Below, one piece after another: positions 44,525 through 47,042 of a DNA stretch of 64,000 nucleotides; position 1 is the first letter of the stretch, and every line of letters starts with the position of its first letter. The stretch comes from an uncultured archaeon. GTDB taxonomy: Archaea; Thermoplasmatota; Thermoplasmata; Thermoplasmatales; Thermoplasmataceae. Where the stretch lies: positions 1,188,457 to 1,252,456 of the forward strand of contig CP009479.1 of NCBI GenBank assembly GCA_000965745.1, given 5' to 3'. Made by a program: the position numbers and the translations under genes. The notes under the pieces were generated by a model. That model was not told the DNA's origin and did no database searches. It worked only from the letters and a program-made list of their open reading frames with translations.

Positions 44525-44605
44525 GCCCGAAGCATGGGGCCCATGGAAAACAGATCAACGGAAAAGAGTACAAGTGCCTGTTTTTCCAAGCACATCGTCA
44601 CAACG

Positions 44606-44625
44606 GTTAAATACTACGAAAGTAT
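44606..44625 (+). promoter_or_regulatory. Promoter and operator-like repeat of the aromatic amino acid operon
   Basis: GTTAAATAC (44606-44614) is a TATA-like element centred about 28 bases before the ATG at 44638. ATACT (44611-44615) and AGTAT (44621-44625) form an inverted repeat that overlaps it and could bind a repressor. The spacing predicts that transcription starts at, or within a few bases of, the small ORF's first codon. Confidence 0.5.
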
Positions 44626-44637
44626 ACATGCTTGATA

Positions 44638-44778
44638 ATGTCACGCCTGCCTAACAGAAAAAGTATAATTGCAGTTGAAGGGCCTTCCAGGGCTCAAATG
44701 AATTTGGAACCAAATGCAGTTATAAGGTCTGAATTTTTTGGCAGTGATGTTTTCTATTATCGTTTTGCACCTTTCTAA
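44638..44778 (+). CDS. Small ORF rich in Phe/Tyr at the head of the aromatic operon
   Basis: ORF of 46 residues, leaderless by promoter position, ending 15 bases before the chorismate mutase ATG. The last 14 residues are FFGSDVFYYRFAPF, with seven Phe or Tyr. Their codons are also a series of T-runs (TTTTTT, GTTTTC, CGTTTT, CTTTC). The first 30 residues are ordinary and basic (SRLPNRKS). The arrangement looks like a leader peptide that senses Phe/Tyr-tRNA supply, but it could simply be a small protein. AGGGAGCTG just after the stop is a ribosome-binding site for the next gene. Confidence 0.5.
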   Translation: MSRLPNRKSIIAVEGPSRAQMNLEPNAVIRSEFFGSDVFYYRFAPF

Positions 44779-44793
44779 GGGAGCTGAATTAAT

Positions 44794-45411
44794 ATGGGTT
44801 CTCAGAGGAAACTTATAGGCAACAGTGAGGAGATTTCGTCTCTGCTCTCCATGCGGGATGAGCTTTTCAGGAATACACTACAGATTATAGATCTGGTCAG
44901 GGAAAGGATCAAGCTTGCGGCAGAGATAGGAAAGGAGAAGGACATGCTCGGCATGTCACCGAGGAACAGGCAAAGGGAACTCGAGGTCCTGAACAGCATA
45001 CCAGAACTTGGTGAGATTGAGAAATCAGTTCTGAACATGATTTTTGAGCTTACAATTCTCAATGAGGTAAGCCAGAGGCCCGAAGTATCAGTTCCTGAAT
45101 CCCATGGGGAAAATGGCGGCAGCATAGTGCTTTCAGGCCCGGACGGGCTTCTTGCATATTCAATGGGGCTCATTGTCTCTTTTCCGGGATTTGAGCTGAA
45201 GGATACTGCGGGGATCCCTGAAAATCTCGCATTGGGGGTTGTTCAGAGGGGTGGCCATATAACAGCTGAAAAAGAGGGCGGAAACTCAGGAAAAATAACC
45301 CTTGTGAATTCAGAGGGAACTGTTATGGCAACTCTTGATAACGGGATACTGAAGATCTGTCCTGAATTATTCTCAAAAAACTCAAAGAATGAAATAATGG
45401 AGGCGGTATAA
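44794..45411 (+). CDS. Chorismate mutase (AroQ type) with extra C-terminal domain
   Basis: Converts chorismate to prephenate in Phe and Tyr synthesis. Residues 15-95 are the all-helical AroQ domain: RDELFRNTLQIIDLVRERIKLAAEIGKEK, then PRNRQRELEVL with the active-site Arg, Lys and Glu. Residues about 105-205 form an unrecognised beta-rich domain (GSIVLSGPDGLLAYSMG to ATLDNGILKICPELF). The TAA at 45409-45411 is directly followed, in the same frame, by the dehydrogenase sequence, so the two may make a fused or coupled protein like the E. coli T-protein. Confidence 0.82.
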   Translation: MGSQRKLIGNSEEISSLLSMRDELFRNTLQIIDLVRERIKLAAEIGKEKDMLGMSPRNRQRELEVLNSIPELGEIEKSVLNMIFELTILNEVSQRPEVSVPESHGENGGSIVLSGPDGLLAYSMGLIVSFPGFELKDTAGIPENLALGVVQRGGHITAEKEGGNSGKITLVNSEGTVMATLDNGILKICPELFSKNSKNEIMEAV

Positions 45412-46071
45412 ATTAAAGTCTCAATAATTGGTTCCAGGGGAAGGATAGGCTCCACTATCAGGGAAAAGCTTGAAGGAAACGGGCATGAAATAATATGTTC
45501 AGTCGACAGGAATGATACAATAGACACTGCAAAACTGAGGTCTTCCGATGTGACAGTCCTGGCTGTCCCGCTTGAGGATGCAATATTGCTCATCGAGAAA
45601 TACAGGCATGAAATCGCCATCGTTGAACTTTCCTCCGTGAAATCTCCCATGAAGCGATTCTCCGGTGAAGTGGTAAGCCTGCATCCACTGTTTGGCCCTG
45701 CTTCATCGAAGAATCCGGATTTCAACACAATCCTGTTTGTTAATGACATTTCGCCTGACGGATCGCTCCAGAAGGTCCGGGAACTCTTTGCCGACAGCAA
45801 CATTGCCAGTGTAACCGCAGAGGAGCATGACAGGGCCATGGCTGACCTGCTGGTTGCACCATACGCAGTATCGATGATTGCAAAGAGGATAGTGGCATCA
45901 AACCAGAAATTTGTCACCCCCTCGTTTGCAAATCTCCAGAAAATAGCATCAATTCTGGACGGGGAAAACTCTTCAGTTGTCAGGGACACAATATCGAAGA
46001 ACGAGTTTTCACGTTCAGTGCTGGAGCAGATCAACAATGAGATTATGGAAATAAGGAGTGGGTTGAATTGA
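45412..46071 (+). CDS. Prephenate dehydrogenase-like protein, no standard start codon
   Basis: NAD(P)-dependent oxidoreductase related to TyrA, 219 residues. The frame opens with ATT at 45412: KVSIIGSRGRIGSTI is the Rossmann start expected for this family, and then LAVPLEDAI, ELSSVKSP and LHPLFGPASSKNPDF (the His of the active site) follow. The codon before ATT is the chorismate mutase TAA in the same frame. The first GTG is at 45550, after the Rossmann motif. It therefore needs AUU initiation, reinitiation or stop readthrough. The gene ends in an overlap with the DAHP synthase start. Confidence 0.8.
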   Translation: MKVSIIGSRGRIGSTIREKLEGNGHEIICSVDRNDTIDTAKLRSSDVTVLAVPLEDAILLIEKYRHEIAIVELSSVKSPMKRFSGEVVSLHPLFGPASSKNPDFNTILFVNDISPDGSLQKVRELFADSNIASVTAEEHDRAMADLLVAPYAVSMIAKRIVASNQKFVTPSFANLQKIASILDGENSSVVRDTISKNEFSRSVLEQINNEIMEIRSGLN

Positions 46072-47042
46072 TCATTATTCCTAAATCCTCCGTGTACGAG
46101 GAAGCGCTGAAGGACAACATGATGGACTCCACGTTCAGCTACAGGGTGATAGACCTCTACGGAAGAAAGATAATCCTTACTGAAGGGCAGACCCCTTCGA
46201 GCCTTCCCATGGATAGCGACACTGCATTGCTTGTCAACGGAAACCTTTACTCAAAGGAATTCAAGCAGGAAAAGACAGTAGTACAGGTTGATAATGTAAG
46301 CATAGGGGAGAAAAAGCTGATAATTGCAGCCGGTCCCTGCGCCGTGGAATCTGAAGGCCAGGTTATGGAGACGGCAGAGGCAGTAAAGAAGATGGGTGCT
46401 GACATGCTCAGGGGCGGCGCATTCAAGCCCAGGACCAGCCCTTACTCGTTCCAGGGCCTTGGGCCGAAGGGGATACAGCTTCTAATGAAGGCGAGAGAAG
46501 AAACTGGCCTGCCGGTAGTCAGCGAGCTTCTTGACATTTCAGATTTCAGTGCCTTCCGGAACAATGTTGACATGATCCAGGTCGGGGCAAGAAACGCGCA
46601 GAACTTCACTCTCCTGAAGTTCCTGGGGCAGCTCAAAACGCCCGTTCTCCTTAAGAACGGCCTTGCTACGACCATGAACGAATGGCTTGGATCAAGTGAA
46701 TACATACTCTCTGGCGGCAATGAGAATGTTGTAATGTGCTACAGGGGAAACAGGAGCTTCGAGAATTATACCAGGTTCAATATGGATATCGGCTCGATAG
46801 CTTCTCTGAAAAACCTGACACATCTTCCTATATGCGCGGACCCAAGCCATCCCGCCGGAAGGAGGGAACTCGTGGAATCACTGGCACTGGGAGCAGTTGC
46901 GTCAGGCGCAGATATGCTTGAGGTTGAGGTCCACAGAGACCCTGACAATGCACTTTCAGACTCGTCGCAGCAGCTTACTCTGGAGATGTTCAACAGGCTT
47001 ATGAAGAACGTCAGGAAGGTAGAAGAGATAGTGAGAGGGTAG
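46068..47042 (+). CDS. aroF: 3-Deoxy-D-arabino-heptulosonate 7-phosphate synthase (type I-beta)
   Basis: First enzyme of the shikimate pathway, 324 residues. AAGPCAVESEGQV is the phosphoenolpyruvate site, GGAFKPRTSPYSFQGLG is the KPRTSP motif, and VGARNAQNF, CYRGNRSF and CADPSHPAGRRE carry metal and substrate residues. An N-terminal ferredoxin-like domain of about 90 residues is the kind that binds Phe or Tyr in relatives, so feedback control is likely. The start is TTG at 46068, which overlaps the upstream stop, with AAGGAGTGGG before it. Last gene of the operon. Confidence 0.93.
   Translation: MIIIPKSSVYEEALKDNMMDSTFSYRVIDLYGRKIILTEGQTPSSLPMDSDTALLVNGNLYSKEFKQEKTVVQVDNVSIGEKKLIIAAGPCAVESEGQVMETAEAVKKMGADMLRGGAFKPRTSPYSFQGLGPKGIQLLMKAREETGLPVVSELLDISDFSAFRNNVDMIQVGARNAQNFTLLKFLGQLKTPVLLKNGLATTMNEWLGSSEYILSGGNENVVMCYRGNRSFENYTRFNMDIGSIASLKNLTHLPICADPSHPAGRRELVESLALGAVASGADMLEVEVHRDPDNALSDSSQQLTLEMFNRLMKNVRKVEEIVRG

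Follow-up and report, generated by a model that had tools for sequence, protein, structure and literature searches.

A Phe/Tyr-rich open reading frame upstream of the chorismate mutase operon of a Thermoplasmataceae archaeon as a possible leader cistron

In the 64,000-nucleotide stretch of archaeal DNA analyzed here (the window), the operon encoding chorismate mutase (CM), prephenate dehydrogenase and DAHP synthase is preceded by a short open reading frame (ORF) rich in Phe and Tyr codons. We tentatively read this ORF as a leader cistron with a translational influence on CM, possibly sensing Phe and Tyr, a reading to which we give only slightly less than even chances. The amino-acid-sensing step, taken alone, is its least certain part and is better regarded as conceivable than as probable. 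The leader cistron reading draws on the uniqueness of the Phe/Tyr cluster, on a 15-nt gap to CM that carries GGGAG, on a reading frame that would be ancestral and on analogous leaders upstream of leuA and ilvB.

The leader ORF (44638..44778; this and all features below are on the + strand) runs from an ATG at 44638 to a TAA at 44776-44778, and its 46 codons translate as MSRLPNRKSIIAVEGPSRAQMNLEPNAVIRSEFFGSDVFYYRFAPF. Its last 14 codons (FFGSDVFYYRFAPF) contain seven Phe/Tyr codons and form a cluster at 44734..44775, which begins with a T6 tract (44734-44739). The ORF and its codon cluster, both described in the first-pass annotation, were confirmed by the sequence and by frame counts. When five stretches of this genome, window included, were broken down into 5,171 stop-to-stop frames and these were compared for the number of Phe/Tyr codons among their last 14, the leader ORF ranked alone and no other frame equalled it. 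The cluster is more than chance would produce, with P = 5e-4 when the whole leader was shuffled and P = 0.015 when the shuffles kept local dinucleotides and T-richness (mean of 4.3 Phe/Tyr codons). The region is T-rich (23 of its 42 bases, with several T4 tracts in addition to T6), and this local T-richness accounts for part of the cluster. No homologue of the peptide was found in 117 genomes of the order, the best chance match having an E of 0.04. A scan of named genomes with the window's CM returned no relative, and hence no genus-mate for a comparison of codon conservation.

A 15-nt gap separates the leader stop from the ATG of CM (44794), and the Shine-Dalgarno-like GGGAG of CM, recognized from the sequence (44779..44783), abuts the leader stop codon. 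The junction thus has the layout of a coupled leader cistron, in which no more than about 20 nt separate the stop from the following start and a ribosome-binding site is found between them. In bacterial leader genes, leader-to-gene distances of 10-16 bp are associated with reinitiation (PMC4833913). The CM gene (44794..45411) encodes an AroQ-type protein of 205 aa (PF01817, E 1.2e-6) with homologues in 46 of the 117 genomes, and it is devoid of the V-[VI]-x-F-I N-terminus typical of nearly all relatives. It is followed by the genes for prephenate dehydrogenase (45412..46071; PF02153 below cut-off, collinear with relatives) and DAHP synthase (46068..47042; PF00793, E 2.4e-68), the TTG start of the latter overlapping the stop of the preceding gene. 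The spacing and gene identities proposed earlier were thus upheld, and the same gene order is found in relatives of the family. The prephenate dehydrogenase gene has no ATG, GTG or TTG start, and the CM stop UAA abuts AUU AAA GUC (window 45409-45414). This AUU aligns with the start codons of relatives, which are mostly ATG, and an AUU start coupled to the upstream CM stop is apparent from the alignment.

Two TATA-like elements lie upstream of CM. Element 1 (TTAAATACT, 44607..44615) has the top TATA score of the 44560-44640 region (5.5), and element 2 (GTATACAT, 44622..44629), with a score of 4.8, occupies the position expected from the promoters of relatives. Directly behind element 2 is a palindromic operator-like site, GCTTGATAATGTCACGC (44630..44646), which overlaps the first codons of the ORF. 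Sites with at most one mismatch from GCGTGAN5TCACGC occur only four times in the 2.23-Mb genome, and the chance of finding one in these 150 nt is about 3e-4. In relatives, CM promoters consist of a TATA element, then a palindrome of the GCGTGA-N5-TCACGC or TGATAGA type (e.g., GCGTGACATTATCACGC and TGATAGATATACTCTATCA), then a transcript start some 20 nt from the first base of that palindrome. The matrix built on the relatives' TATA and operator had its best match upstream of CM at 44617 (score 6.2, with 5.7e-4 of window positions scoring as high), and the relatives' layout is matched in the window by element 2 only, not by element 1. As this layout fits element 2, transcription is predicted to start near 44650, inside the ORF and downstream of its ATG. 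The first ATG after this predicted start is codon 21 (44698), in the same frame, and would open an alternative, shorter leader ORF (MNLEPNAVIRSEFFGSDVFYYRFAPF, 44698..44778). The operon thus has a short translatable ORF in its predicted 5' leader in either case, 44638-44778 or 44698-44778. The ATG at 44638 lies about 27 nt after element 1, and upstream of the transcription start if element 2 is used. Hence, of the leaderless transcript proposed earlier, the TATA element stands, but a leaderless start at 44638 is doubtful, since element 2 scores about the same and has the operator layout; the first 20 codons of the ORF may be absent from the mRNA. The Phe/Tyr cluster would lie within the leader, in the same frame, for either predicted start. 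The palindromic operator, situated between the TATA element and the start site, is the probable point of transcriptional control of the CM operon. Across the order, the position of the CM-operon palindrome between TATA and transcript start is conserved while its sequence changes.

A leader ORF upstream of CM is supported by comparison as a conserved feature of Thermoplasmatales. A short ORF in this position, which the first-pass annotation had suggested looking for in related genomes, is present in most of the 46 genomes with a CM homologue, where it starts at the TATA-predicted transcript start and crosses the CM start in another frame (e.g., MNTKRSGLFYRQ, MKSGGSLYRP, MADKMRDDLLYRGTA and MPLNGSDSLYQENQW). 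In these ORFs, found in two families, the initial ATG or GTG lies 4, 10, 13, 16, 19 or 22 nt upstream of the CM start codon. All six spacer lengths are 1 mod 3, for which the chance is near 0.004 if they are taken as independent and shared ancestry is ignored. Genera with a leaderless CM, which have the TGATAGA-type palindrome, are without a leader ORF. The offset in the window, 109, is also 1 mod 3, and its assignment to the relatives' frame depends on a weak block match. The block, GATGTTTTCTATTATCGT (44746..44763), is the best block-matrix match in the leader, has the relatives' frame relation and may be a remnant of their leader/CM-start overlap; matches as good occur at 4.8e-4 of positions, which over the 126 positions tested gives about 0.06. 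At its 5' end the ORF reads CCT AAC AGA AAA AGT against ATG AAC ACA AAA AGA AGT in relatives, and at its 3' end DVFYYR weakly matches their DDLLYR.

Conservation of aromatic codons, which had been proposed as the accompanying check, was not found: most leaders of relatives contain one or two aromatic codons. Single-base codon differences among 21 distinct overlap blocks numbered 160 synonymous and 190 non-synonymous when scored in the CM frame, as against 12 and 377, respectively, in the leader frame. In addition, LFYR in the relatives' leaders is what V-V-Y-F-I of CM gives when shifted by one base, and genera lacking the leader ORF retain V-[VI]-x-F-I in CM as well. The overlap varies as expected from the CM frame, hence the Phe/Tyr codons of the relatives' leaders are a by-product of the CM start and were rejected as evidence for sensing. 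The Phe/Tyr-rich form of the leader is known from one genome only, in which the cluster no longer overlaps CM. A +1 frameshift from leader to CM at a YUU-UAU slip site was also considered for the relatives; it was not retained as the principal interpretation, given that CM almost always starts with GTG or ATG and that V-[VI]-x-F-I is kept where CM is leaderless and there is no leader ORF. In four loci of two genera, the CM gene has an in-frame stop at codon 3 (GTG ATA TAA/TGA TTT ATA ...), and most of these genes have no suitable ATG, GTG or TTG that keeps the conserved first Arg; one further CM locus also shows a 1-nt shift. As judged from these sequences, expression would require AUA initiation, reinitiation or recoding.

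The mechanism put forward in the first-pass annotation, in which the T-runs of the Phe/Tyr codons act as terminators and the pace of ribosomes across them determines transcription into the operon, was not borne out. It has some basis in that archaeal RNA polymerase terminates at U-tracts with the help of aCPSF1/FttA, which coupled ribosomes may exclude (PMC8116511), and in that the T6 and T4 tracts do lie inside the cluster. However, T6 stands at the beginning of the cluster and would already have been passed by the polymerase when a ribosome stalls, no T-tract lies between the cluster and CM, and the CM leaders of relatives do not keep T-runs as a feature in their own right. Moreover, uncoupling under starvation should raise termination, which would be the wrong sign for a biosynthetic operon. 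Folding of the CM leader revealed no structure beyond that of shuffled sequence (z of 0.07 and 0.17) and neither a terminator nor a switch between mutually exclusive structures, one of them a terminator or a sequestered ribosome-binding site; no Rfam leader family was matched in the leu or CM loci. With the polymerase past T6 and the sign wrong, the T-tract mechanism is not favored, and we consider it very unlikely.

Cognate-codon leaders in Thermoplasmatales are otherwise well supported by comparative sequence analysis. In the same genome, the leuACDB operon, whose leuA was named from gene order and PF00682, is preceded by a leader ORF (genome position about 1628137-1628216) reading MLTLVLHEVLLLNESTLSPVVL, whose 22 codons include 8 Leu and 4 Val; of 3,522 frames, it alone attains this Leu+Val count. 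The ilvB leader ORF (about 304279-304353), VSLTASTTELNFSVVGILQIIIGL, has its GTG at the TATA-predicted start and an Ile/Leu/Val count reached by 14 of 5,679 frames. Both leaders recur in other genera. For leuA, the leader of the nearest genus is VNKVLTLLVPEFLLLGQSTLSPVVL, in which the last eight codons and the stop differ synonymously only; MNSIMFIEQLFFLLLE, MNSITFIRQLYFLLLE and MNTIIFTQQLFFLLLQ were found in another single genus, and MNGMVFTQLLFLLAE and MFNIVSNNANVLFLGLHSGH in further genera. The ilvB leader of the nearest genus is MRPNPTASNVILNTISGIIGLVIR, and in another family three ORFs of 34 codons were found, which end in RLLLVIIILVILIIVQ, HLLLSVLVILLIIIVQ and QLLLLVIVILLLIIVQ and downstream of which lie GC-rich sequence and a T6 tract. 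Other genera have very short ORFs some 60-115 nt upstream of ilvB; these terminate in -RFI*, -GFI* or -RLI* and fall within the conserved stretch AGGTTTATCTAACATCTGTGGCG. A hairpin is predicted around the Leu codons of the leuA leader in five genera (z from -2.2 to -7.2), with 25 predicted pairs in seven sequences of two genera, four of them with both bases changed and pairing preserved. The hairpin is followed by a U-tract and a ribosome-binding site, with which its 3' arm could form an alternative pairing, as seen by inspection only. This arrangement suggests translational control as well as, or instead of, transcriptional control, and makes the leuA leader a strong candidate for an archaeal leucine attenuator. 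Cognate leaders were absent from the trp operon (trpB first) and from pheA of the same genome, hisG is absent from this genome, and ilvE in the window has no obvious leader. The general idea of archaeal amino acid leader peptides thus receives strong comparative support, and to judge from these comparisons it is much better supported by the leuA and ilvB leaders than by the CM ORF.

Two other explanations of the CM ORF have to be weighed. The ORF might be incidental, a repressor at the operator controlling the operon and the T-rich 5' leader happening to read as Phe and Tyr. We hold this to be a serious possibility, if a rather improbable one: the operator and TATA layout is conserved across the order, composition-matched shuffles already yield several Phe/Tyr codons on average, the CM leader shows no RNA structure and the peptide is without a homologue. 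An accident would nevertheless leave unexplained that 46 codons are open in the relatives' leader frame, that the cluster surpasses all frames of the comparison set, that cognate leaders also precede two further amino acid operons of this genome and that the ribosome-binding site of CM follows the leader stop directly, in the fashion of a second cistron. Alternatively, the relatives' out-of-frame leader could be a constitutive brake that captures leaderless initiation, runs through the CM start and so limits CM synthesis, the ORF of the window being a separated remnant with no sensing. The fixed frame relation across six spacer lengths points in this direction, as do the use of a frame that avoids both an in-frame extension of CM and a stop at or near its start, and the existence of genera in which a leaderless CM has no leader ORF. 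In the window, however, the leader no longer overlaps CM and contains more, not fewer, Phe/Tyr codons than the leaders of relatives, and we regard the brake as unlikely.

In the leader cistron reading that we prefer, the ORF would be the form taken in this lineage by the short leader with which the mRNA for CM, prephenate dehydrogenase and DAHP synthase begins in Thermoplasmatales. Ribosomes would translate the leader first, and their arrival at its stop, over GGGAG, would govern CM initiation, either through reinitiation after termination or through a terminating ribosome covering GGGAG. The Phe/Tyr codons would tie ribosome flow to charged tRNA-Phe and tRNA-Tyr. Should GGGAG be covered by terminating ribosomes, it would become free on starvation and CM synthesis would rise, which is the useful direction. 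T-tract termination would not be required, and we infer that a translational mechanism at the stop/GGGAG junction is simpler than the T-tract model and can have the right sign. Doubt comes from the single genome, the origin of the relatives' aromatic codons as a by-product of the CM frame, the lack of RNA structure and the local T-richness. It is increased by the uncertain transcription start, the lack of a trp or pheA leader and the weak DVFYYR homology (about 0.06). For the CM ORF, the case for attenuation is no more than suggestive. The ORF has a cluster of end-product codons; as it has neither an RNA switch nor conserved regulatory codons, it is not classed as a classical attenuator.

Control of bacterial amino acid operons by ribosome-sensing leader peptides is textbook knowledge. 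Like the bacterial attenuators of pheA, trp, leu and ilv, the CM leader is a short ORF with cognate codons just upstream of an operon. It differs from them in having no alternative hairpins or terminator, in its archaeal host, in a codon cluster that extends to the leader stop, 15 nt ahead of the following gene, and in the lack of conservation of that cluster in relatives. With the leuA and ilvB leaders it shares the genome, the cognate codons (Leu/Val and Ile/Val/Leu, respectively) and the position directly upstream of the first operon gene. Those leaders recur in several genera whereas the Phe/Tyr form of the CM leader does not, and the strong hairpin with compensatory changes, the U-tract and the ribosome-binding site of the leuA leader have no counterpart in the CM leader. 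The coupled leader genes described in bacteria (PMC4833913) have in common with it a stop 15 nt before the next start and a ribosome-binding site at the junction, whereas a Phe/Tyr cluster is foreign to that model. A body of 5.39 million open papers yielded no archaeal precedent for a cognate-codon leader, in agreement with the earlier statement that no established archaeal example is known. On balance, it is plausible, although we put it somewhat below an even chance, that leader peptides of Thermoplasmatales sense the end product of their operon, i.e., Phe/Tyr for CM in this lineage, Leu for leu and Ile/Val/Leu for ilv. If true, such end-product-reading leaders would represent ribosome-mediated attenuation in archaea.
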